Positions 52,432 to 63,960 of a DNA stretch of 64,000 nt are shown in pieces (positions within the stretch are counted from its first letter, which is position 1; every line of letters begins with the position of its first letter). Origin of the DNA: Streptomyces sp. NBC_00536. Lineage in GTDB: Bacteria > Actinomycetota > Actinomycetes > Streptomycetales > Streptomycetaceae. Both the position numbers and the translations under genes were made by a program. The notes below the pieces were generated by a model that was given only the letters and a program-made list of their open reading frames with translations, was not told the DNA's origin and made no database searches. The stretch covers positions 3,410,001-3,474,000 of the forward strand of contig NZ_CP107819.1 in assembly GCF_036346295.1 (NCBI RefSeq), in the 5' to 3' direction.

Positions 52432-53865
52432 TCAGCTGGGAGCCTCGGCGCCCTTGCGGGCGTAGAACCACCAGCAGACGGCCAGGCAGGTCGCATAGAA
52501 CCCGATGAAGATCCACAGGGCGGTCGTCACCTGGAGGTTCGCGAACATCGCCGGGATGAAGAAGAAGCCGTAGGCGGCGATCGCGGAGGAGAAGCCGGTG
52601 ACGGCACCCGCCTCCATCTCGGACTGCTTGAGGGCGGCGGCCTGCGCCTCGGGGCCCTGCCCCGCGGCCTGCTTCGCGTGCTGGTCCCGGAAGATCACCG
52701 GGATCTGCCGGAAGGTCGAGCCGTTGCCCAGGCCGGAGAAGAAGAAGGCCACCAGGAAGCCGATGAAGAAGGTCCAGAAGCTCCCCTGGTCGCCGCCGGA
52801 CGGCAGCGCGAAGATCACCACGACCAGCGCGGCCGCCATGCCGACGAAGGAGAGCATGGTGACCCTGGCGCCGCCCATCTTGTCGGAGAGCCAGCCGCCG
52901 GCCCACCGCATGATCGCGCCGACGAAGGGGCCGATCCAGGCATAGGTGGTGGCCTGGTAGCCCTGGGTCTCGAAGTTGTTCTTGATGAGCAGCGGCAGGC
53001 CCGCGGCGAATCCGATGAAGGATCCGAAGGTGCCGACGTAGAGCCAGGTCATCAGCCAGTTGTGCTTGCGCTTGAAGATGATCTTCTGCTGGCTGAACGG
53101 GGCGGCGGCCACCTTGAGGTCGTTCATCAGGAACCACGCGAGCAGCGCCATGATGACCAGCAGCGGCACCCAGAGGAACGCGCCGTTCTGGAGCCAGATG
53201 TCGGTGTTCTTCTTGGCGTCGTGCTGCGGGCCGCCCGCGGGCGCGCCGAGGACGGCCGCGGTGACCACCAGCGGCGCGACCAGCTGGACCACGCTGACGC
53301 CGAGATTGCCCAGGCCGCCGTTGAGGCCGTTGGCGCTGCCCTTCTCCCGTTTGGGGAAGAAGAAGCCGATGTTGGCCATCGAGGACGCGAAGTTGGCGCC
53401 GCCGATGCCGCAGACGGCCGCGATCAGGGCCAGCTCCCAGTACGGCGTGCCGGTGTCCTGGAGCGCGAAGCCCAGCCAGAGCATCGGGCCCACGAGCACC
53501 AGCGTGCTGAGCGCGGTGAACTTCCGTTCGCCGAAGATCGGCCCGATGAAGGTGTACAGGATCCGGAAGGTGCCGCCGGTGATGCCGGGGATCGCGGTCA
53601 GCCAGAACAGCTGCGACTTGGAGAAGCCGAAGCCGACGTCGTTCAGCTTGACGACGGTGACCGACCAGACCTGCCAGACCACGAAGCCGAGCATCAGCGC
53701 GGGGACCGAGATCCACAGGTTGCGCTGGGCCACCTTGCGGCCGGTGGACTGCCAGAAACCGTCGTCCTCGGGACGCCAGTCCCCGATCGTGGAACCGGGC
53801 TTGTAGGTCTCGGCCCGGTGCGAACGGGGCGCCTGCGAGACGGGGGTGGGTATGGACATGGTCAT
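52432..53865 (-). CDS. narK: NarK-family nitrate/nitrite transporter (copy 1)
   Basis: 477-residue MFS transporter with about twelve helices and NarK signatures: GIGGANFASSMANIGFFFPK (nitrate signature 1 region) and AGLPLLIKNN. It may move nitrate/nitrite, or possibly another small anion such as formate given the context. ATG at 53865 overlaps the upstream stop (ATGA) with GAAGGA upstream. Last gene of a six-gene oxidoreductase operon. Closely similar throughout to the NarK at 62539-63960 (for example identical FSQQK motif and SAIAAYGFFFIPAMFAN-like end). Confidence 0.92.
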   Translation of the reverse strand: MTMSIPTPVSQAPRSHRAETYKPGSTIGDWRPEDDGFWQSTGRKVAQRNLWISVPALMLGFVVWQVWSVTVVKLNDVGFGFSKSQLFWLTAIPGITGGTFRILYTFIGPIFGERKFTALSTLVLVGPMLWLGFALQDTGTPYWELALIAAVCGIGGANFASSMANIGFFFPKREKGSANGLNGGLGNLGVSVVQLVAPLVVTAAVLGAPAGGPQHDAKKNTDIWLQNGAFLWVPLLVIMALLAWFLMNDLKVAAAPFSQQKIIFKRKHNWLMTWLYVGTFGSFIGFAAGLPLLIKNNFETQGYQATTYAWIGPFVGAIMRWAGGWLSDKMGGARVTMLSFVGMAAALVVVIFALPSGGDQGSFWTFFIGFLVAFFFSGLGNGSTFRQIPVIFRDQHAKQAAGQGPEAQAAALKQSEMEAGAVTGFSSAIAAYGFFFIPAMFANLQVTTALWIFIGFYATCLAVCWWFYARKGAEAPS

Positions 53866-54230
53866 CGGTCCTTCGGGTCGAGGATCCACAGACCCAGCAC
53901 GACCAGGAAGGACAGGAACAGGAATCCCGCCCCCCACCAGGCCGTGTGGGTGTTTCCCTTCATCCATTCGTTGACGGTCACGGTCAGCGCCCAGAGCTGG
54001 CCGATCACCACGGTGAGGGCCAGTGCGAGACGGGCGTTGAGCTTCGAGGAGCGCTCCGGTTCCTGCTCGGTACCGGCTCCCGGGCCGGGGCCCGTGTGCC
54101 GGATCCGGGGGTCGCCGTAGCCGCTGGTGGCGCGGATCTGGGGGTAGCGCTCCCGGACCGGCCGGTTCAGCCGGGGCTGGGCGCTGCCCGGCCGGTACGC
54201 GGGCCGGGGAGGCAGCTGGGGCTCGCTCAT
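53862..54230 (-). CDS. Two-TM membrane protein of oxidoreductase operon
   Basis: 122-residue protein. A Pro/Arg/Tyr-rich cytosolic head (1-60) precedes two helices (ALALTVVIGQLWALTVTV and AGFLFLSFLVVLGLWIL) joined by a short KGNTHTAWW loop. No family recognised. It overlaps both neighbours by ATGA, so it is co-translated with the Rieske protein and NarK. It may be an accessory or assembly subunit of the complex. Confidence 0.8.
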   Translation of the reverse strand: MSEPQLPPRPAYRPGSAQPRLNRPVRERYPQIRATSGYGDPRIRHTGPGPGAGTEQEPERSSKLNARLALALTVVIGQLWALTVTVNEWMKGNTHTAWWGAGFLFLSFLVVLGLWILDPKDR

Positions 54231-54910
54231 GTCCGCCTGCTCTCGGTGGCGCGGGCCGCGCCCGGGCAGCCCAGGCGGGCGGCCATCTCGGGTCGGGCGT
54301 CGCCGAACTGCCGGCACAGGGCTTCCTTGGCCGGCTCCCCGGACCGGGCGGTGGCCACGGCCCAGACGCTTCCGTCGACCTCCTCGGTCAGGAAGACCTT
54401 GGGGAGCGGGCGGGGCGGCGGGCCCGCGGTGACCTCACCGGTGCGGGCGTCGAAGACGCCTTCGTGGCAGGGGCAGTACAGCTCCCCGTCGGCGCCGCGG
54501 TCCCCGCGCCACAGCACCGCGCAGGCCAGGTGGGTGCAGACGGCGGAGTAGCCGACGAGGCTGCCGTCCTTGAGGCGTACGGCGACCGCCCGGTCCTCGT
54601 CGCCGGGGAACCGGAAGGCGACGGACTCCCCCGGCGGGAGCAGGTCGGCGACCTTCTTGGCCGTGGGCAGCTTCTCGGCGTCGCCGTGCCGGTGCAGGAT
54701 GCCCGCGGCCACGCCCACCCCGCCGATGGCCAGTCCGCCGGAGACGGTGGCGACGATCCGCAGGTAGTCGCGCCGGGTCGTCAGGGAGTCGGCGCTGATC
54801 CGGTCACGGAGCTGCTCGGCGGCGGCGTCCACCCCCGTATCGGAAGCGGAGCCGGGGCCGGGGCCCGGTTCGCCACCGGGGGCCGGAGCGGGCTGTTCGG
54901 TGACGCTCAT
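54227..54910 (-). CDS. Rieske 2Fe-2S protein
   Basis: 227-residue Rieske protein. A Pro/Gly-rich head precedes TTRRDYLRIVATVSGGLAIG (residues ~44-63), a twin-arginine-type membrane anchor. Cluster ligands are Cys125-x-His127 and Cys146-x2-His149 (VCTHLAC and YCPCHEGVFD), with Cys130 and Cys148 as the conserved disulfide. The cluster is therefore expected outside the membrane. Start ATG overlaps the FeS subunit stop (ATGA). A Rieske subunit next to a molybdenum oxidoreductase plus a cytochrome-b-like anchor recalls archaeal nitrate reductases and arsenite oxidase more than E. coli NarGHI. Confidence 0.9.
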   Translation of the reverse strand: MSVTEQPAPAPGGEPGPGPGSASDTGVDAAAEQLRDRISADSLTTRRDYLRIVATVSGGLAIGGVGVAAGILHRHGDAEKLPTAKKVADLLPPGESVAFRFPGDEDRAVAVRLKDGSLVGYSAVCTHLACAVLWRGDRGADGELYCPCHEGVFDARTGEVTAGPPPRPLPKVFLTEEVDGSVWAVATARSGEPAKEALCRQFGDARPEMAARLGCPGAARATESRRT

Positions 54911-55506
54911 CGGACATCCACTCCGTTGATCTCGACCACGGGGAGCCCGCCCGGGACGGGCCACTGCACCTTGTCGGCGGGGACGACCATCGCCACGCCG
55001 GTCTGGACGACCACGTCGCCGAAGACGAAGGAGTCGGCGACCTGGACGCCGGGACGCTCGGCCTGGAGTTCCTCCAAGGTGCCGTAGAACAGGGCACCGG
55101 TCGGGCAGACCGTGGCGCACATGGGGGCAAGGCCGTAGGCGGTGCGGTCGTAGCAGAGGTTGCACTTCATCTGCAGCTTCGCCTGGAGGTCGATCTTCGG
55201 GACGCCGAAGGGGCAGGCGTTGACGCAGTTGCTGCAGCCGATGCAGCGGGTGGTGTCGGCCTGCTGCACCACGCCGTCGGCGGTCACCAGGATCGCGTCG
55301 GCGGGACAGACCTCGGCGCAGGGCGCGACCGGGTCCTCACAGTGCATGCACACCGTGGGAAGGGAGGCGACGGACATGCCGGGGTCGGTGTAGTCCAGGT
55401 GGATCATCGATTTGCCGCGGTGCGAATCGCACTCGCGGCAGGCGGAGACACAGGCCTGGCAGCCGATGCAGCGCCCCGGGTCGATGAAGATCGTTCTGCC
55501 CATCAT
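54907..55506 (-). CDS. Four-cluster 4Fe-4S electron-transfer subunit (NrfC/HybA/FdhB type)
   Basis: 199-residue ferredoxin-like protein with 16 clustered Cys: RCIGCQACVSACRECD, VCMHCEDPVAPCAEVCPADA, RCIGCSNCVNACPFG and CNLCYDR with CATVCPTGA. It would wire the molybdoenzyme to the membrane anchor or Rieske protein. Start at ATG 55506 (or 55503). It begins 7 bp after the catalytic subunit stop, with a ribosome site inside that gene, and its stop overlaps the Rieske start. Confidence 0.93.
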   Translation of the reverse strand: MMGRTIFIDPGRCIGCQACVSACRECDSHRGKSMIHLDYTDPGMSVASLPTVCMHCEDPVAPCAEVCPADAILVTADGVVQQADTTRCIGCSNCVNACPFGVPKIDLQAKLQMKCNLCYDRTAYGLAPMCATVCPTGALFYGTLEELQAERPGVQVADSFVFGDVVVQTGVAMVVPADKVQWPVPGGLPVVEINGVDVR

Positions 55507-55513
55507 GGCGCGA

Positions 55514-57814
55514 TCAGTTCCTCTCCGCCGTGCCGCGGCCCTGGGGGGCCGTGGGGGGCAGGGGGTCGGTACGGGACACCTGGGTCTCCGGGTAGGCCTC
55601 GTGACCGGGGGCCGTGGGCGGGGCGGGCACCTCGTCGACCCGCTCGGCGGACTCGATCCGGGCGGCGCAGACCTTGTACTCGGGGATCTTGGAGCGGGGG
55701 TCGAGGGCGTCGATGGTCAGGGCGTTCGCGGCCGTCGGGACGGGCCAGTGGTAGGGGATGAAGACGGTGTCCGGGCGGATCGCCTCGGTGACCAGGGCCG
55801 GGAAGACCTCGCTGCCCCGGCGGGTGATCACCCGGACCGGATCGCCGTTGCGGAAGCCGTGCGAGGGGTGGACCTCCACCCACGGGCGCGGGGTCTGCTC
55901 GACCAGGGCACCCAGGCGGCGGGTCTGGTTGCCGGAGAGGAAGTGCGCGACGGTGCGGCCGGTGGTGAGGGAGAGGGGGTACTCCTCGGTGTAGGCGTCC
56001 ATTGGCGGATGCCATTCCACGACCTGCATGTGGACCTTCCCGTCGGGATGGAAGGTCGTGCCGCCCTCGAACAGCCGGGGGGTGCCCGGGTGGTCGGTGG
56101 AGGGGCAGGGCCAGGCGATCCCGCCGGTCTCCTCCAGCCGCTCGTAGGTGATCCCGTAGTAGTCGTTGACCGTGCCCGCGGAGGCGGTGCGCAGTTCCTC
56201 GAACACCTCGCGGGAGCCGGGGAAGTCGAACTTGTCGCCGACGCCGAGGCGGCGGGCCAGTTCGCACATCACCCAGGTGTCGGTGCGGACCCCGGCGGGC
56301 GGTTCCTGCGCCTTGTTGTGCTTGACGACGCGGGCCTCGGTGTTGGCCATGACGCCCTCGTCCTCGGCCCAGACGGTGACCGGGAAGACCACGTGCGCGT
56401 TGGCGGCGGTCTCGGAGAGGAAGAAGTCGAACTGTGCGTGGAATTCGAGGGTGTCGTAGCCCTCCTTGACCGTCCCGTAGTTGGGGAGGGAGACGAAGGG
56501 GTTGTTGCAGATGCCGATCAGCCCGCGGATCTCGCGCCGCTGCATCTGCCAGACCATCTCCATCATGGAGGTGCCGGCGAGCGGGAGTTCGGATTCCTCG
56601 ATGCCCCAGATCGCGCAGATCTGGCGGCGGTGCTCCTCGTTCATGATCGAGCGGCCGCCGGGGAGGAGGTCGGACTTCTGGCCGTGTTCGCGGCCGCCCT
56701 GACCGTTGCCCTGGCCCGTGATGGTGCCGTATCCGGCGCCCGGTTTGCCGAGGTTCCCGGTGGCCGTGCAGAGGTTGATGATCGACAGGCAGTTCTCGAC
56801 GCCCTGGGAGTGGTGCTCCACGCCGCGCGCGTGCATGGCCATCGCGTTCCCGGCGCCCGCGAACATCCGGGCCACCTGGACGATCTGGGAGGCGGGGATC
56901 CCGCAGATCTCGGCGGCGCGCGCGGGCGGGTACTGGGCGACGGTCGCCTTGACCTCCGCCCAGCCGGTGGTGTGGTCGGCGAGGAAGGCCTCGTCGGTCA
57001 GGCCCTCCTCGATCACCACGCCCAGGACGGCGTTGAAGAAGGCCGAGTCGGTGCCGGGCTTGAGGGCGACGTGCACGTCCGCGGTGCGCGCGACCGCCGT
57101 CTCGCGCGGGTCGACCACGATGAGGGAGGCCCCCCGGTCGCGGGCTCCCCACACGTACTGGGTCATCACGGGGAAGCACTCCCCCACGTTCGACCCGGCG
57201 ATCAGCAGGCAGTCGGTGAGGAGGATGTCGGAGAAGGGGTTGCCCGCCCGGTCGATGCCGAAGGCGAGCTTGTTGGCCCCGGCCGCGCTGACCATGCACA
57301 GCCGGCCGTTGTAGTCGACGTGCCGGGTCTTCAGCGCGACCCGGGCGAACTTGCCGACCAGGTAGGTCTTCTCGGAGTACAGGCTGGCGCCGCCGAGCAG
57401 GCCGAAGGCGTCGTTGCCGTGGGCGCCCTGGATGCGCCGGACCTCGGCGACGGTGTGGTCCAGCGCCTCGTCCCAGGACACCTCCTTGAAGGGTTCGTCC
57501 CGGGAGCGGCGCATGAGCGGGGAGGTCAGCCGGTCGGGGTGGTTGACCTGCTGGTAGGCGTTGATGCCCTTGGGGCACAGGCGCATCCGGTTGATGTCGT
57601 GGTTGCGCGGCTCGACGCCGAAGACCTTGCCGCCCTTGTCGACGCGCAGGTACATCCCGCACTGCACGCCGCAGAAGCAGCAGTGGGTGGGGACGAGGGT
57701 CTCGCCGTTCTGGTCGGCGTGCCACTGGTCGGCGGGGATCCCGCCCGCGTCCCGGAAGTTGCGGGTTCCGGGCGGGGCGAGCGAAGGGTCGAGCGGGATG
57801 CGCTGCGTGCTCAT
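55514..57814 (-). CDS. Molybdopterin oxidoreductase catalytic subunit (nitrate reductase/formate dehydrogenase-like)
   Basis: 766-residue Mo/W-bisMGD enzyme. The N-terminal 4Fe-4S site is HCCFCGVQCGMYL followed ~27 residues on by CPKGINAY. The likely Mo ligand is Cys in GSNVGECFPVMTQY, the position used by Cys in assimilatory/periplasmic nitrate reductases (E. coli FdhF uses Sec). The C-terminal dinucleotide domain includes TGRTVAHFLSGNQTRR. No twin-arginine signal, so it is probably cytosolic. Either nitrate reduction or formate oxidation fits: NarK genes favour nitrate, the adjacent pflBA favours formate. Start ATG overlaps the anchor gene stop (ATGA). Confidence 0.9.
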   Translation of the reverse strand: MSTQRIPLDPSLAPPGTRNFRDAGGIPADQWHADQNGETLVPTHCCFCGVQCGMYLRVDKGGKVFGVEPRNHDINRMRLCPKGINAYQQVNHPDRLTSPLMRRSRDEPFKEVSWDEALDHTVAEVRRIQGAHGNDAFGLLGGASLYSEKTYLVGKFARVALKTRHVDYNGRLCMVSAAGANKLAFGIDRAGNPFSDILLTDCLLIAGSNVGECFPVMTQYVWGARDRGASLIVVDPRETAVARTADVHVALKPGTDSAFFNAVLGVVIEEGLTDEAFLADHTTGWAEVKATVAQYPPARAAEICGIPASQIVQVARMFAGAGNAMAMHARGVEHHSQGVENCLSIINLCTATGNLGKPGAGYGTITGQGNGQGGREHGQKSDLLPGGRSIMNEEHRRQICAIWGIEESELPLAGTSMMEMVWQMQRREIRGLIGICNNPFVSLPNYGTVKEGYDTLEFHAQFDFFLSETAANAHVVFPVTVWAEDEGVMANTEARVVKHNKAQEPPAGVRTDTWVMCELARRLGVGDKFDFPGSREVFEELRTASAGTVNDYYGITYERLEETGGIAWPCPSTDHPGTPRLFEGGTTFHPDGKVHMQVVEWHPPMDAYTEEYPLSLTTGRTVAHFLSGNQTRRLGALVEQTPRPWVEVHPSHGFRNGDPVRVITRRGSEVFPALVTEAIRPDTVFIPYHWPVPTAANALTIDALDPRSKIPEYKVCAARIESAERVDEVPAPPTAPGHEAYPETQVSRTDPLPPTAPQGRGTAERN

Positions 57815-58926
57815 TTGAAGCCCTTCTTGACGTGGTTGAGGTAGGCACCGCCGCGCAGCACCCGCTTGCAGCGGGGGCAGTATTCGGCCCAGGCGTCGAA
57901 GTCGAGCTTCAGGTCCTTCATCGTGCCGCGCAGGTTCTCGACGTACGGGGCGGTGTCCACGGGCTCTCCGCACCGCTTGCAGGCGAAGATCTCTTCGTCC
58001 TGGCGGGCGGTGTACTTGAAGAGCTGCATCCCGACGGCCGCGGGCCGCTGCACGATGTGGAAGAACTTCCCGAACGGGATGTAGATGAGGGTGAAGACCA
58101 CCGAGACCATGTGCAGGATGGCCAGGAACTCGTAGCCGCCGCCGTGCAGGAAGATCGAGGAGAAGGTGAGCAGCAGCCCGGTCACCGAGATGACGATCAG
58201 CATGATCAGCGGGAGCAGGTCGTAGGCGAAGCGCTGCCCGGTGATGGCGCCGCGGTCCTTCATCCGCCGCCACAGGAAGTACGAGGCGCCGGGGATGACG
58301 AGGACGGCGGCGATGTCCAGGCCGTGGAACATCAGCCAGCCCAGGACGTTCAGCGCGTCGAAGCCGAGCACCTTGAAGCCCCAGATCCGCATCTCGTAGC
58401 CGGGGCCGGATCCGGTGCCGGAGGTGAAGGTGAACCAGCCCCAGGTCAGCGGGAAGGTGATCAGCGCGGCGAGGATGCAGCCCCAGAAGATCATCTGGTG
58501 GGCGGCCCAGCGGGCGTGCGAGCGGGCACCGAGGAACTTCTGGAAGCCTAGGTAGGTGGCGGTCATCTTCGGCAGGGCGGTGGGGGCCTTGCGGAAGTTC
58601 GCGGCCGAGAAGAGGCTGCCGAAGCCCTTCTTGAAGAGGCGGCGCGCGCCGGGGGCCGAGACCCAGACCGTGTAGCGGTAGGCCACGCCGAAGGCCAGGA
58701 AGACGGTGGCCACGGCGTACGGGAGCAGCGCGGAGTCGAAGTCGCGCAACAGTCTGCTGCCGAGCACGATCGCGGCGATCAGGAGCAGGGAGACCACCGC
58801 GCCCGTCAGGGTGGCCCGCGCGGTCACGGACCGCCCGGCCACGGGCCGCGCCCCCGGCCGCGGCTGCGGCGGGGGCGCCTCATCGGGTGGTGGCGCTGCG
58901 GCGAGTACTTCTGAGGGCTCGGGCAC
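57811..58926 (-). CDS. NarI/HdrE-like cytochrome-b-type membrane anchor with CxxC ribbon
   Basis: 371-residue polytopic protein. A Pro-rich head, then six helices, with His residues placed like heme-b ligands (WAAHQMIFWG, LMFHGLDIAAV, LAILHMVSVV and GKFFHIVQR). The C-terminus has two CxxC pairs (FACKRCGEP and YCPRCKRVL), a likely metal ribbon. It would exchange electrons with the quinol pool. GTG at 58926. First gene of the six-gene operon; the preceding 121 bp contain a tandem repeat with a palindrome. A twist on the usual NarI is the extra ribbon. Confidence 0.85.
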   Translation of the reverse strand: MPEPSEVLAAAPPPDEAPPPQPRPGARPVAGRSVTARATLTGAVVSLLLIAAIVLGSRLLRDFDSALLPYAVATVFLAFGVAYRYTVWVSAPGARRLFKKGFGSLFSAANFRKAPTALPKMTATYLGFQKFLGARSHARWAAHQMIFWGCILAALITFPLTWGWFTFTSGTGSGPGYEMRIWGFKVLGFDALNVLGWLMFHGLDIAAVLVIPGASYFLWRRMKDRGAITGQRFAYDLLPLIMLIVISVTGLLLTFSSIFLHGGGYEFLAILHMVSVVFTLIYIPFGKFFHIVQRPAAVGMQLFKYTARQDEEIFACKRCGEPVDTAPYVENLRGTMKDLKLDFDAWAEYCPRCKRVLRGGAYLNHVKKGFK

Positions 58927-58980
58927 AGGACCACGCTAGGCCGTATGTACCGATTCAGCCCGCTATCGCCGCTCTTGTGT

Positions 58981-59012
58981 TGGGCCATTCGAGGAATGGG
59001 TCATTCGAGGAA
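58981..59012. promoter_or_regulatory. Tandem 16-bp operator-like repeat before oxidoreductase operon
   Basis: TGGGCCATTCGAGGAA (58981-58996) and TGGGTCATTCGAGGAA (58997-59012), 15 of 16 identical and directly abutting. The first copy with the start of the second forms the perfect dyad CCATTC-GAG-GAATGG (58985-58999). Located 55-86 bp before the GTG of the anchor gene. Confidence 0.55.
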
Positions 59013-59047
59013 ACTGTCATCGCCCTGCCCTGGGGGGGGAGGGCGGA

Positions 59048-59875
59048 TCAGACCGCCAGCAGCCCCCGTGCCGCGAAGATCTCCTTGGCGCGCGCGACCT
59101 GCCCGGCGGTGGGCGACGGCGTGTCGTGCAGCGAGAAGTTCATGTCCAGCGCCTCCCACTTGCTCTCGCCGAGCTTGTGGAAGGGCAGCACGTCGACCCG
59201 CGAGACGTTGCCGAGGCCCGCGGCGAAGGCCGCGACGCCCTCGATGTTCTCCCGCGCGTCGGTCAGCCCCGGCACCAGCACGAACCGCAGGAGCACCTCG
59301 TTGCCGAGGTCGGCGAGGCGGCGGGCGAAGTCGAGGGTGGGCTCCAGCGGGCGGCCGGTCACCTTCGTGTAGGTCTCCCGGTCCCAGGACTTGATGTCCA
59401 GCAGCACCAGGTCCACGTCGCGCAGCAGCGCGTCGGTGGCGCGGGCACCCAGGAACCCGGAGGTGTCCAGGGCGGTGTGCAGCCCGAGGTCGTGCTTCAT
59501 CCGGTGCAGCAGCTCGCCCGCGAAGACCGGCTGGAGCAGCGGCTCGCCGCCGGAGATGGTGGCGCCGCCGCCGGAGGCGGTGATGAAGCGGGTGTACTTG
59601 CGCGCCTCGGCGATCACGTCGTCGGCCGAGGTCCGCTTGCCGCTGCGCATCCGCATGGTGTCGGGGTTGTGGCAGTAGAGGCAGGCCAGCGGGCAGCCCG
59701 CGAGGAAGGTGACGAACCGGGTGCCGGGACCGTCCACGCCCGTCGACAGGTCCCAGGAGTGGACGGAACCCTCGCTCGGCCGCTGGGTCGCGGCGGCGGC
59801 GGGCGTCTGCCCCGCACTGACGGGCACGGCGTTGGCGGCGCCGACGGGGATGTTCGTACCGAGCAGGACGGTCAT
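59048..59875 (-). CDS. pflA: Pyruvate formate-lyase activating enzyme
   Basis: 275-residue radical-SAM activase. Cluster motif CPLACLYCHNPD (CxxxCxxC), then GGGATISGGEPLLQP and DIKSWDRETYTKVTG, with C-terminal VLPFHKLGESKW. It abstracts H from the Gly731 region of PflB using SAM. A ~30-residue Ala/Pro/Gln-rich N-terminal extension is unusual. ATG at 59875 has GGAG at 8 nt. It lies 95 bp downstream of pflB behind a hairpin. Confidence 0.94.
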   Translation of the reverse strand: MTVLLGTNIPVGAANAVPVSAGQTPAAAATQRPSEGSVHSWDLSTGVDGPGTRFVTFLAGCPLACLYCHNPDTMRMRSGKRTSADDVIAEARKYTRFITASGGGATISGGEPLLQPVFAGELLHRMKHDLGLHTALDTSGFLGARATDALLRDVDLVLLDIKSWDRETYTKVTGRPLEPTLDFARRLADLGNEVLLRFVLVPGLTDARENIEGVAAFAAGLGNVSRVDVLPFHKLGESKWEALDMNFSLHDTPSPTAGQVARAKEIFAARGLLAV

Positions 59876-59927
59876 GGCAGGTGCTCCAGATTCGAGGGGC
59901 TGATCTGGTGTGGGGCGGTCGCCGGGC

Positions 59928-59961
59928 GTCCGGCCGGATCCCGTGGGAGACCCGGCCGGAC
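59928..59961 (-). terminator. Hairpin between pflB and pflA
   Basis: GTCCGGCCGG / CCGGCCGGAC perfect 10-bp stem, 14-nt loop. It lies just past the pflB stop and before the pflA start on the same strand, so it may terminate part of the transcripts or stabilise the pflB mRNA. Confidence 0.5.
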
Positions 59962-59970
59962 GGGCGGACC

Positions 59971-62241
59971 CTAAAGGGAGCCGTGGAACGTGCGGTTCAG
60001 CACGTCCAGCTGCTGGGCGCGGGTCAGCCGGACGAAGTTCACCGCGTACCCGCTGACGCGGATGGTCAGCTGCGGGTAGTTCTCCGGGTGCTCCATGGCG
60101 TCCATGAGCGTGTCGCGGTTGAGCACGTTCACGTTCATGTGGAAGCCGTCGCTGGCCATGTAGCCGTCGAGCACGCCCGCCAGGTTCTTGATCCGCTCCT
60201 CGGGGGTGCGGCCCAGGCCGTCGGGGGTGACCGTGTTGGTCAGCGAGATGCCGTCCTCGGCATCCTCGTACGGCAGCTTCGCGACCGACAGCGCGGAGGT
60301 GACGTAGCCGTGGGTGTCACGGCCGTTCATCGGGTTGGCACCCGGGGAGAACGGCTCGCCCGCGCGGCGTCCGTCCGGCGTGTTGCCGGTCTTCTTGCCG
60401 TAGACGACGTTCGAGGTGATGGTCAGCACCGACTGGGTGTGCTCGGCGTCGCGGTAGGTCGCGTGCCCCCGCACCTTCTTCATGAACTCCTCGACCAGCC
60501 ACACCGCGATGTCGTCGACCCGGTCGTCGTTGTTGCCGAAGGCCGGGTACTCGCCCTCGATGGTGTAATCGGTGGCCAGACCCGTCTCGTCGCGCACCGG
60601 CGTGACCTTGGCGTACTTGATGGCGGCCAGCGAGTCGGCGGCGACCGAGAGCCCGGCGATGCCGCAGGCCATCGTGCGGCGCACGTCGCGGTCGTGGAGC
60701 GCCATCTCGATGCGCTCATAGGCGTACTTGTCGTGCATGTAGTGGATGACGTTCAGGGCGTGGACGTAGGTGTCGGCGAGCCATTCCATCTGCTCGTCGA
60801 ACTTGGCCATGACCTGGTCGTAGTCGAGCACGTCGGAGGTGAGCGCGCCGGTCGAGGGGCCGACCTGGGCGCCGGACTTCTCGTCCCGGCCACCGTTGAT
60901 CGCGTAGAGCAGCGTCTTGGCGAGGTTCACCCGGGCGCCGAAGAACTGCATCTGCTTGCCGACGGGCATCGCCGAGACGCAGCACGCGATGGCGGTGTCG
61001 TCGCCGAAGCGCGGACGCATCAGCTCGTCCGACTCGTACTGGACCGACGAGGTGTCGATCGAGACGCGGGCGCAGAACTCCTTGAAGCCCTGCGGCAGCC
61101 GCGGCGACCAGAAGACCGTCATGTTCGGCTCGGGCGCCGGACCGAGGTTGTACAGGGTCTGGAGGTAGCGGAAGGAGGACTTGGTGACCAGCGGACGGCC
61201 GTCCTCACCCATGCCCGCGATCGACTCGGTGACCCAGGTGGGGTCTCCGGAGAACAGCTCGTCGTAGTCCGGGGTGCGCAGGAAGCGCACGATGCGGAGC
61301 TTGATGATGAAGTCGTCGACCAGTTCCTGCGCCTGCTCCTCCGTCAGGAGGCCGGCCTCGATGTCGCGCTGCAGGAAGACGTCGATGAAGGTGGAGGTGC
61401 GGCCGAGCGACATGGCCGCGCCGTTCTGCTCCTTCACGGCGGCGAGGTAGGCGAAGTACAGCCACTGGATCGCCTCGCGGCCGGTGGTCGCCGGGCCGGA
61501 GATGTCGTGACCGTAGGAGGCGGCCATCGCCTTCAGTTCGGCGAGCGCGCGGATCTGCTCGGAGAGTTCCTCGCGGAGGCGGATCGTTTCCTCCAGCGAG
61601 CGGTTGCCCGCGGGGAGGGCATTGAGCTCCTCCTTCTCCTCCTTCTTCACCACGATGAGGCGGTCGACGCCGTAGAGGGCCACGCGGCGGTAGTCGCCGA
61701 TGATGCGGCCGCGGCCGTAGGCGTCGGGCAGTCCGGTGACGATGCCCGCCTTGCGGGCGGCGCGGATCTCGGGGGTGTAGGCGTCGAAGACACCGGCGTT
61801 GTGGGTCTTGCGGTATTCGGTGAAGACCTTCTCCAGGTCCTCGGACACCGGGTAGCCGTAGGTCTCCAGGGCGCCGGCGACCATGCGCCAGCCGCCGTAC
61901 GGCATGATCGCGCGCTTGAGCGGGGCGTCCGTCTGGAGGCCGACGATCAGGTCCTTGTCGCGGTCGATGTAGCCGGGGGCGTGCGCGGTGATCGTCGAGG
62001 GGATGTCGTGGGCGACGTCGTAGACGCCCTTCTCGCGCTCCTCCGGGAACTTGTCCGTGATCGCCTTCCACACGGCGGTGGTGCGCTCGGTCGGGCCGGC
62101 GAGGAAGGAATCGTCACCCTCGTACGGCGTGTAGTTCTGCTGGATGAAGTCGCGGACGTCGATGGCGTCGCGCCACAGGCCGCCCTTGAAGCCGTTCCAG
62201 GCTTCGCCGTTCTTCGTGGTTTCCGCAGGGGTGGCAGTCAT
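59971..62241 (-). CDS. pflB: Pyruvate formate-lyase (glycyl radical enzyme)
   Basis: 756-residue PflB converting pyruvate and CoA to acetyl-CoA and formate, oxygen-sensitive. Catalytic Cys420-Cys421 are in [17 protein letters not shown], and the glycyl-radical Gly731 in RVSGYAVNF near the C-terminus, as in E. coli (Cys418/419, Gly734). Full length, close to the enterobacterial form. ATG at 62241. A perfect Rex-type operator lies ~177 bp upstream, and a TGATCGATCA palindrome about 55 bp upstream. Rare for a Streptomyces-like organism. Confidence 0.96.
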
Positions 62242-62293
62242 TTCGCCCGCACCTTCCGAGTCGCCTCATTACTTGTATCCATTGCACGCCTTT

Positions 62294-62303
62294 TGATCGA
62301 TCA
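62294..62303. promoter_or_regulatory. 10-bp palindrome near pflB promoter
   Basis: TGATCGATCA, fully self-complementary, in an A/T-richer patch ~55 bp before pflB. It lacks the N4 spacing of an FNR box; regulator unknown. Confidence 0.25.
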
Positions 62304-62417
62304 TTTGGCGCCGCGATGGTCCTGAGCTGGGGCCCGAAAGTCCCCTCATCCCCGGCTCCCAGGGTCCCGCATCCCGGCTGACCTGGCATTTTGAGCAGGC
62401 CAAAGGTCCGTCGTGCG

Positions 62418-62437
62418 CTTGTGAAAGCTTTCACAAG
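62418..62437. promoter_or_regulatory. Rex operator (ROP) upstream of pflB
   Basis: CTTGTGAAAGCTTTCACAAG is a perfect 20-bp palindrome. Its inner 18 bp match the Rex (NAD+/NADH sensor) consensus TTGTGAAxxxxTTCACAA with every arm base. It sits in the 297-bp gap between narK and pflB. Rex releases its sites at high NADH, so pflBA would be induced under low oxygen. Confidence 0.88.
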
Positions 62438-62465
62438 ATTCTCGGAACCAGCGCCCGGGGCAACC

Positions 62466-62510
62466 CAGCCCCGCCGGCGCTTGAGGCGCGGGGTCTGGGG
62501 CGGAGCCCCA
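62466..62510. repeat. GGCGTTTGAGG-family repeat (variant)
   Basis: CAGCCCCGCCGGCGCTTGAG followed by GCGCGGGG and GGGGCGGAGCCCC, one base changed in the core. Located just past the narK stop, on the distal side of the Rex site. Same family as at 8271, 15042 and 32391. Confidence 0.72.
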
Positions 62511-62538
62511 GGAACCCCGGGCAACCGGGAGCCGCCGG

Positions 62539-63960
62539 CTAGCTGGGCGCCTCCGCGCCCTTGCGGGCGTAGAAGTACCAGGCGACGACCACACAGCTGG
62601 CGTAGAAGGCCACGAAGCCCCACATCGCGCTGGTGACGGCGAAGTTCGCGAACATCGCCGGGATGAAGAAGAAGCCGTAGGCGGCGATCGCGGCGGTGAA
62701 ACCGGTGACCGCGCCCGACTCGATCTCGGCCTGCTTGAGCGCGGCCGCGTACTGCGGGGTGCCCTCGGTGAGGCCCTTCAGGTGCTGGCCGCGGAAGATG
62801 ACCGGGATCTGGCGGAAGGTCGAGCCGTTGCCGATGCCGGAGAAGAAGAACGCCGACAGGAAGCAGAAGAAGAAGCCGTAGAAGGAACCGGAGTCGGAAC
62901 CCGCCGGGAGGAAGGTGATCACGCCGATGATCGAGGCCGCCATGCCCACGAAGGACAGGATCGTGACCCGCGCACCGCCCAGCTTGTCGGCGATCCAGCC
63001 GCCCGCCCACCGGGCCAGGGCGCCCAGGGCCGGGCCCATCCAGGCGTAGGTGGCGACCGAGTACGCCGGGAACGTGGTCTTGATCAGCAGCGGCAGGGCC
63101 GCCGCGAAGCCGATGAAGGAGCCGAAGGTGCCGACGTAGAGCCAGGTCATCACCCAGTTGTGCTTGCGCTTGAAGATGACCTTCTGCTGGCTGAAGGGGG
63201 TGGAGGCGACCTTCAGGTCGTTCTGGCCGAACCAGGCCACCACGGCCAGGACCACCAGGACGGGCACCCACACGAAGGCGGCGTTCTGGAGGTAGATCTC
63301 CGTCCCGTCGGCCTTCTTCTGGCCGGCGCCGATCGCCAGTACCGAGGAGGTGATGAGGATCGGGGTCAGCAGCTGCACCACGGACACGCCCAGGTTGCCC
63401 AGGCCGCCGTTGATGCCGGTCGCGTTGCCCTTCTCCTGCTTCGGGTAGAAGAAGCCGATGTTGGCCAGCGAGGAGGAGAAGTTGGCGCCGCCGATGCCGC
63501 AGAGGGCGGCGATCGCGACCATCGTGGTGTAGGAGGTCGCCGGGTCCTGGACCGCGAAGCCCAGCCAGATCAGCGGCACGATGAGGACGATGGTGGAGAG
63601 CGCCGTGAAGCGGCGCTGGCCGATCATCGGGCCGAGGAAGGTGTAGAAGATGCGGGCGGTACCGCCCGTGATGCCCGGGACCGCCGTCAGCCAGAACAGC
63701 TGCGACTGGCTGAAGCCGAAGCCGACGTCCTTGAGGTTGGTGGCCGTGATGCTCCACACCTGCCAGACGACGAAGGCGACCAGCAGCGCCGGAACCGCGA
63801 TCCACAGGTTGCGGGTGGCGACCTTCTTGCCCGTGGACCGCCAGAAGGAGGGATCCTCCGGGGTCCATTCGGTGATGGTGCGGCCGGGCCGGTACTGCGC
63901 CGGGTCGGGCGCGAGCGCGCGGCCGGTCGCCGAGGGCGCATCCTGGGTGGCGGAACTCAT
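62539..63960 (-). CDS. narK: NarK-family nitrate/nitrite transporter (copy 2)
   Basis: 473-residue MFS transporter, highly similar to the copy at 52432. Shared segments include VGFGFSQSQLFWLTAVPGIT, GIGGANFSSSLANIGFFYPK, FSQQKVIFKRKHNW and GFTAAIAAYGFFFIPAMFAN. ATG at 63960 with AGGA upstream. Whether it is cotranscribed with pflB is unclear: a repeat and a Rex site lie between, so pflB probably has its own promoter. The two copies bracket the island. Confidence 0.93.
   Translation of the reverse strand: MSSATQDAPSATGRALAPDPAQYRPGRTITEWTPEDPSFWRSTGKKVATRNLWIAVPALLVAFVVWQVWSITATNLKDVGFGFSQSQLFWLTAVPGITGGTARIFYTFLGPMIGQRRFTALSTIVLIVPLIWLGFAVQDPATSYTTMVAIAALCGIGGANFSSSLANIGFFYPKQEKGNATGINGGLGNLGVSVVQLLTPILITSSVLAIGAGQKKADGTEIYLQNAAFVWVPVLVVLAVVAWFGQNDLKVASTPFSQQKVIFKRKHNWVMTWLYVGTFGSFIGFAAALPLLIKTTFPAYSVATYAWMGPALGALARWAGGWIADKLGGARVTILSFVGMAASIIGVITFLPAGSDSGSFYGFFFCFLSAFFFSGIGNGSTFRQIPVIFRGQHLKGLTEGTPQYAAALKQAEIESGAVTGFTAAIAAYGFFFIPAMFANFAVTSAMWGFVAFYASCVVVAWYFYARKGAEAPS

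Follow-up and report, generated by a model that had tools for sequence, protein, structure and literature searches.

A conserved five-gene molybdoenzyme core in Streptomyces that probably encodes a membrane-bound nitrate reductase

The window analysed here is a 64,000-nucleotide stretch of the 9.15-Mb genome of Streptomyces sp. NBC_00536 (contig NZ_CP107819.1, positions 3,410,001 to 3,474,000), and our subject is a six-gene operon on its minus strand, the first five genes of which, hereafter the core, include a molybdenum (Mo) enzyme. The operon opens with a GTG-initiated gene (57811..58926) for a NarI-like cytochrome b anchor that has about six transmembrane (TM) segments and a C-terminal four-Cys ribbon. 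There follow the genes for a catalytic subunit of the Mo-bis-pyranopterin guanine dinucleotide (Mo-bisPGD) class, Nas/NapA type (55514..57814; Molybdop_Fe4S4, Molybdopterin and Molydop_binding domains), a DmsB-like 4Fe-4S subunit with four cluster motifs (54907..55506; Fer4_11 and other matches, with DmsB-type NCBIfam matches below cut-off), a Rieske subunit with a twin-arginine motif and, by hydropathy, one N-terminal TM segment (54227..54910; PF00355), and a small DUF6755 subunit with two TM helices predicted from hydropathy (53862..54230; PF20540 at 24.8 bits, just below the cut-off of 27). The final operon gene, narK2 (52432..53865), encodes a NarK/NarU-type nitrate/nitrite transporter of the major facilitator superfamily (TIGR00886, 328 bits, just over the cut-off of 312). 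Four junctions are ATGA overlaps, including the one at which the narK2 start overlaps the DUF6755 gene, and a 7-bp gap separates the catalytic and 4Fe-4S genes. The full order along the minus strand is narK1-pflB-pflA, then anchor-catalytic-4Fe4S-Rieske-DUF6755-narK2. An initial annotation of this DNA, made from the letters alone, had described six genes joined mostly by ATGA overlaps, a pair of NarK genes and a double CxxC ribbon on the anchor, all of which is correct.

There are 147 confirmed relatives, and the best 80 of these were surveyed (79 titled Streptomyces and one titled [Kitasatospora] papulosa). Among named loci, the nearest are those of Streptomyces sp. G-G2 and S. xanthophaeus, whose anchors are 94% identical to the one in the window. 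A single gene order is shared throughout, with the catalytic, 4Fe-4S and Rieske genes present in 79 of the 80 loci and DUF6755 in 77; core genes are missing only from L049, L081 and L111, all of which lie at contig ends. A match to mscL adjoins the core in 68 of the 80 loci. At least one NarK is present in 36, and in 12 a NarK follows DUF6755. The core is also found with neither NarK nor pfl matches, as seen in the open reading frames (ORFs) listed for S. griseus (L046), S. anulatus (L045) and S. californicus (L036).

Roughly one in four of the Streptomyces genomes examined (37 of 150) has an anchor match, although two of the matches are weak or short (G081 and G078) and three are partial or in pieces (G008, G038 and G082). 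In a phylum-wide sample, 21 of 296 genomes have an anchor match: our own, one other Streptomyces, 14 strong matches from other classes (family codes f9, f15, f20, f31, f45 and f70) and five weak ones (below 24 bits). None of the 21 comes from a genome of the same class outside the genus. There are 15 actinobacterial loci of other classes with a strong match, and all have both the anchor and the catalytic gene. The 4Fe-4S and Rieske genes are present in 14 of them (L147 is cut), and DUF6755 is matched in 11, some kilobases away in L151 and L152. Four Deinococcus plasmids (L118-L121) likewise carry the core together with NarK. The DUF6755 orthologues of L118 and L155, the two that were scanned, pass the PF20540 cut-off. 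Because the arrangement is common to 80 Streptomyces-type, 15 other-class and four Deinococcus loci, the clustering is not due to chance. Judged from this distribution, the five-gene core is an old, conserved unit that often occurs without pfl.

For the catalytic subunit, 23 sequences were chosen (the window, five of the 80 Streptomyces-type loci, 14 of the 15 other-class loci and three of the four Deinococcus loci), and in the alignment all 23 carry the Mo-ligand motif DYNGR-L/M-CMVSA. The same Cys-Met pair is found in nine Nas and two NapA references, and one further reference annotated as a nitrate reductase (L168) reads Cys-Thr. The five formate dehydrogenase (FDH) references have Cys or X (a selenocysteine codon) followed by His, and AioA has no ligand Cys at this site. 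In an IQ-TREE phylogeny of 42 sequences and 773 columns, the sequences of the complex form one clade (support 97/99*), which is joined to the Gram-positive Nas proteins, beside NasC (support 89/82, not starred). The other side of the tree holds the proteobacterial and halophile Nas proteins, NapA and the FDHs. The Nas proteins do not form a single group, and the positions of PhsA, AioA and FdnG, which sit on long branches, are uncertain. The best NCBIfam model is NasC, at 764 bits against a cut-off of 1100. This cut-off looks narrow, because the NasA-like protein encoded elsewhere in this genome, which also holds a separate NarG locus, fails it too at 794 bits. By these sequence measures, the catalytic subunit belongs to the nitrate-reductase (Nas/NapA) type. 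Its phylogeny had been put forward in the initial annotation as a check, and the subunit groups beside Gram-positive NasC and not with an unrelated molybdoenzyme.

Three other assignments were considered and set aside. A NarG type is disfavoured by the Cys-Met motif, by the Nas-side tree position and by the NarG model, which is not among the 25 matches listed of 26 in the NCBIfam scan. A periplasmic Nap type disagrees with the tree, where NapA lies elsewhere, with the different partner subunits, and with the catalytic subunit of the window, in which no twin-arginine export motif was found. A thiosulfate or polysulfide reductase is disfavoured by the position of PhsA, which is distant and on a long branch.

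It had also been proposed that the complex either reduces nitrate or acts as an FDH that passes electrons from formate, produced by pyruvate formate-lyase (PFL), to the quinone pool. The active site, the tree and the neighbouring genes described below favour the first part of this proposal. The second part is suggested by the adjacency of pflBA in 13 of 150 Streptomyces genomes, by a TIGR01591 (Fdh-alpha) match of 567 bits, though this is below its cut-off of 666, and by the nearest PDB chains in sequence, which are formate dehydrogenases and then NapA. However, Met takes the place of the His that follows the ligand residue in FDHs, the FDHs are found elsewhere in the tree, and pflB is unmatched in 36 of 70 Streptomyces loci and in the other-class and Deinococcus stretches. 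We therefore reject the FDH assignment as scarcely credible, and PFL-derived formate is probably not a substrate of the complex.

The partner proteins point to the membrane. In the anchor, H143, H272 and H290, which are candidate heme ligands, and C316, C319, C350 and C353 of the ribbon are invariant in 20 sequences. Its predicted model resembles EtfD and NarI, and there are weak NCBIfam matches to QmoC/TmcC. The anchor has no Pfam match, and no PDB sequence was retrieved for it with E values as high as 1; Foldseek alone returned mostly receptor bundles, none of its matches reaching E 0.001. The four Cys motifs of the DmsB-like subunit are present in all 23 chosen orthologues (loose patterns), and the twin-Arg and CxH/CPCHxGxF motifs of the Rieske subunit in all 24 of those chosen for it. 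The core thus co-encodes the Mo-bisPGD, four-cluster and anchor subunits that define a complex iron-sulfur molybdoenzyme of the dimethyl sulfoxide (DMSO) reductase family. A NarI-like anchor and a four-cluster subunit are components of respiratory enzymes, and by sequence the catalytic subunit has the partner set of a membrane-bound respiratory complex. The initial annotation was right that neither NarGHI nor FDH has this mixture of a NarI-like anchor, a Rieske protein and a double CxxC ribbon.

The anchor C-terminus is positively charged and is therefore presumably cytoplasmic. This bears on an outward-facing variant, in which the twin-arginine translocation (Tat) signal of the Rieske protein would take both the catalytic and the 4Fe-4S subunit out of the cytoplasm with it, in the way that the Rieske Tat signal exports its partner in arsenite oxidase. 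In favour of this variant, the Tat-type motif is consistent in the Rieske subunit alone, whereas a loose version of the pattern appears in only one of the 23 catalytic subunits (L152). The charged C-terminus and the NarK gene beside the operon favour an inside location, and we consider the outward-facing variant very improbable. A further possibility concerns quinol bifurcation of a half-bc1-like kind, wherein a quinol oxidised on the outside would send one electron to the exported Rieske protein and an outside acceptor, and the other through the b hemes to nitrate inside. We regard this as doubtful.

NarK, NirB, NirA-type, HPP and MobA genes are recurrent neighbours of the core. A tblastn search found a NarK-type, HPP or NirA-type gene in 12 of the 15 other-class loci and MobA in five. 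Of the three loci that lack the first three kinds, L143 and L147 are on cut contigs and L151 carries MobA. Control stretches totalling 216 kb, drawn from these same genomes and including many short contigs, gave no match to any of the four kinds of gene. This neighbour count is post hoc, because the HPP, NirA-type and MobA queries were drawn from the other-class loci themselves. The strength of the NarK matches varies, with L150 above the curated cut-off and L152, L142 and L144 below it. In our genome, narK1 (62539..63960, minus strand; a second NarK/NarU-type transporter gene of the same superfamily, TIGR00886 at 318 bits, just over the cut-off of 312) has directly upstream of it, on the same strand and past the window end, a gene for a NirB of 952 amino acids (L112 4129-6987, G000:C1; TIGR02374 at 952 bits, cut-off 578). 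The C-terminal NirD-like Rieske_2 domain of this protein gives 60 bits with the NirD model, below the cut-off of 75.

These genes can also be read as part of an assimilatory or redox-disposal system, in which nitrate would be reduced mainly to provide nitrogen or to keep the redox state in balance, with the membrane subunits delivering electrons but not conserving energy. The position of the catalytic subunit beside the assimilatory-type NasC fits this idea, as do the adjacent NirB, which is matched in 16 of the 80 Streptomyces-type loci (many of them too short to reach it), and the NirA-type nitrite reductase gene in three of the 15 other-class loci. Yet neither NirB nor a NirA-type gene is matched in the other 12 stretches, a separate NasA-like gene is available in our genome, and the anchor and four-cluster subunit are of respiratory kinds. 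On balance, an assimilatory or redox-disposal role appears unlikely.

Another candidate function is oxidation of a metalloid, with electrons from Sb(III) or a comparable donor passing to the quinone pool, as reported for the antimonite oxidase NaoABC. In the available text of PMC11521347, the catalytic, 4Fe-4S and Rieske subunits of NaoABC come in the order seen here, and R. palustris expressing NaoABC is reported to oxidise Sb(III) in a nitrate-dependent manner. Two regulators near other-class cores weakly match HTH_5 (ArsR family), above the cut-off in L156 and below it in L154. However, the neighbours of the core are nitrate and nitrite genes, and no As or Sb enzyme or efflux gene is among the annotations of the four Deinococcus regions and 38 hand-picked other-class ORFs. 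Moreover, the nao genes are described, in the same available text, without an anchor, NarK or a nitrate reductase test of NaoABC (PMC11521347). We judge a metalloid oxidase to be improbable.

Gene content, the active-site motif, tree position and candidate ligands favour the proposal that the five-gene core probably encodes a membrane-bound, quinol-linked nitrate reductase that faces the cytoplasm, for which we infer the substrate, the quinol, the sidedness and the direction of the reaction. A quinol, perhaps menaquinol, would be oxidised by the NarI-like anchor, and its electrons would travel through the b heme or hemes of the anchor and the four clusters of the DmsB-like subunit to the Nas-type Mo subunit on the cytoplasmic side. 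The four-Cys ribbon of the anchor, probably cytoplasmic, may dock the pair of catalytic and 4Fe-4S subunits and hold Zn or Fe. The Rieske protein, with its conserved Tat-type motif, should lie on the outer face, exchanging electrons with the quinol site or with an outside partner. NarK proteins import nitrate and export nitrite, and NirB reduces nitrite to ammonium; nitrate would thus enter and nitrite leave through NarK, with conversion to ammonium by NirB where this is present.

Among known systems, NarGHI is similar in having a Mo subunit, a four-cluster subunit, a NarI-like anchor and a NarK partner, and presumably in quinol-driven nitrate reduction in the cytoplasm. It differs in that the core has a catalytic subunit of the Nas type with Cys-Met, adds the Rieske and DUF6755 subunits and the ribbon, and lies in an operon without NarJ. 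Haloarchaeal respiratory Nar also combines Rieske and cytochrome b subunits with a nitrate reductase, but its catalytic subunit is NarG and faces outward. AioAB resembles the core in its Rieske partner with a Tat-type N-terminus, but has no DmsB-like subunit or anchor, and the missing ligand Cys of AioA sets it further apart.

NasC, NasA and NarB share the catalytic sequence, active-site motif and tree position of the core. The clade holding Nas, NapA, AioA and one FDH lineage is described, in the available part of PMC7331816, as not associated with canonical four-cluster or anchor subunits. The core has both, unlike the Nas proteins so described, and because these accompany a Nas-type subunit, the operon would be a counter-example to that description (PMC7331816). 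A nasC cluster of Bacillus bataviensis, proposed to be assimilatory, includes genes for Hcp and a Rieske-type 2Fe-2S protein. The link between NasC and a Rieske-type gene is shared with the core, but no anchor or four-cluster subunit is named for Bacillus in the available text (PMC3475470). NaoABC of Symbiobacteriaceae is described as having a catalytic subunit nearest NapA, a DmsB-like 4Fe-4S subunit and an AioB-like Rieske protein with an N-terminal TM segment (PMC11521347). By description, it resembles the core in subunit types as well as order, and it differs in its reported role of Sb(III) oxidase, for which the test strain had narGHI as well, and in that no anchor, DUF6755 or NarK is described for it in that text (PMC11521347). 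No description of the core operon or of a Streptomyces pfl system is among the literature matches listed, which comprise titles and abstract openings, with subscription papers mostly outside.

If our proposal is correct, the core is an undescribed membrane-anchored nitrate-reducing enzyme, assembled from parts that are usual in separate enzymes. It would be a new variant among complex iron-sulfur molybdoenzymes, and a branch described as lacking such partners, in the available part of PMC7331816, would gain a membrane complex. The enzyme may help supposedly aerobic soil Streptomyces under low oxygen, which is a concrete hypothesis, and the comparison raises the question of whether NaoABC, reported to be an antimonite oxidase, can reduce nitrate.

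Next to the core in the window are pflA (59048..59875, minus strand; PFL activating enzyme, TIGR02493 at 281 bits, cut-off 232) and pflB (59971..62241, minus strand; PFL, TIGR01255 at 1193 bits, cut-off 994). The identity of PflB is further supported by its Cys-Cys pair (ACCVSAM) and glycyl-radical-type motif (RVSGYAV), and its PF02901 match is unique in the whole genome. The initial annotation had correctly placed pflA, pflB and a second NarK beside the six-gene set, and regarded the whole as one anaerobic island. This last view holds only in part. There are pflB matches in 34 and pflA matches in 38 of the 80 Streptomyces-type core loci, and it is among the 70 loci extending 6 kb upstream of the anchor that 36 are without pflB. 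No pfl match was found in the stretches of the 15 other-class loci and four Deinococcus plasmids. Among the 150 Streptomyces genomes, PFL is matched in 58 (in 54 of them above the cut-off), the anchor in 37 and both in 17, compared with about 14 expected (Fisher p 0.33, or 0.44 without G081). The initial annotation had named a lack of co-occurrence with pfl as an outcome that would refute it. This holds only statistically, in that the overlap is not above chance, and pfl adjoins the core in 13 of the 17 genomes that have both.

A total of 20 further PFL loci were inspected, 17 of them from genomes without the core. In one (L176, G093), narK-pflB-pflA adjoins mscL and the core is unmatched, which makes this locus an apparent natural empty site for the core. 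NirB is present in L191, and the other 18 have neither NirB nor the narK-pflB-pflA/mscL arrangement. In L037, L042 and L070, a pflA-like sequence lies beside the core without a pflB match, as if pfl were being lost. The pflBA genes look like an optional neighbour, a fermentation module separate from the core that is often found beside it in Streptomyces.

A putative Rex operator, TTGTGAAAGCTTTCACAA (62419..62436, no strand assigned), precedes the pflB start by 178-195 bp. The Rex sequence of S. aureus, TTGTGAAW4TTCACAA, is said to correspond to the Rex sites of S. coelicolor in the available text of PMC2883068, and we searched with the pattern TTGTGAANNNNTTCACAA, in which W4 is relaxed to N4. 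The site fits this pattern perfectly, and 0.01 sites are expected per window at up to two mismatches. There are five sites genome-wide at up to one mismatch and none for the reversed pattern. They are associated with adhE and pflB (both perfect), rex-hemA, cydA (cytochrome bd subunit I), and a pyridine nucleotide-disulfide oxidoreductase that we read as NADH dehydrogenase-like, its family model being below cut-off. The adhE and cydA matches are fragments, cut by the stretch, and are below family cut-offs; the Rex protein itself is above its own.

The exact site is found in 20 of the 35 core-linked Streptomyces loci with any pflB match and in none of the other 15, nor in any of the 20 further PFL loci. 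Among the 150 Streptomyces genomes, 23 carry an exact site, and 11 of the 31 sites in total have a PFL match at a distance of 215-243 bp. Of 22 further loci with a site, six match pflB, five adhE, two cydA and nine none of the five probe proteins. Because the site is kept in core-linked loci and absent from other PFL loci, Rex control of pflB is likely a property of this group, not of all PFL-bearing Streptomyces, and separate from the core. The sites on pflB and adhE suggest a regulated fermentation route in this group, with PFL and AdhE under predicted Rex control. A joint regulon of pfl and the core was considered and rejected, since the sole site in the window is the one at pflB, with none by the core, and none was found in Streptomyces core loci without pflB.

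Some additional features of the core loci were observed. A gene for an HPP-family membrane protein, which we take to be a nitrite transporter, lies just after the core in L145, L146, L148, L154, L155 and L156; it follows DUF6755 except in L156, which has no DUF6755 match and where it follows the Rieske gene. Both L144 and L146 encode a histidine kinase with a GAF domain together with a response regulator of the LuxR type, a pairing that is reminiscent of nitrate two-component systems. L150 has an ORF that is MoeA-like, judged from its translation. A multicopper oxidase in L146 was considered as NirK and rejected: its best model is a copper-resistance oxidase, the Cu-nitrite reductase model gives only 67 bits, and a similar gene is present in the control stretches. 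For a protein in L154, Cu-nitrite reductase is the only model matched at threshold, at 187 bits, below the cut-off of 296. NirK was therefore left out of the neighbour counts. The Deinococcus operons open with an ORF of 65-70 amino acids that overlaps the anchor gene; an FmdE-family gene is near three of these four cores, and in L121 a gene annotated as a TraR/DksA zinc finger is beside NarK.

A first-look scan for DevR/OsdR, FNR and GlnR motifs gave one DevR-like site, which lies within the narK2 coding sequence and was set aside. Shortly before the anchor GTG start, many orthologues have AAAAC[AG]GG about 20 bases ahead of CCTAnnGTGG. The copy in the window (58931-58966) reads ATAGCGGG and then CCTAGCGTGG, and this element is possibly the promoter of the core.

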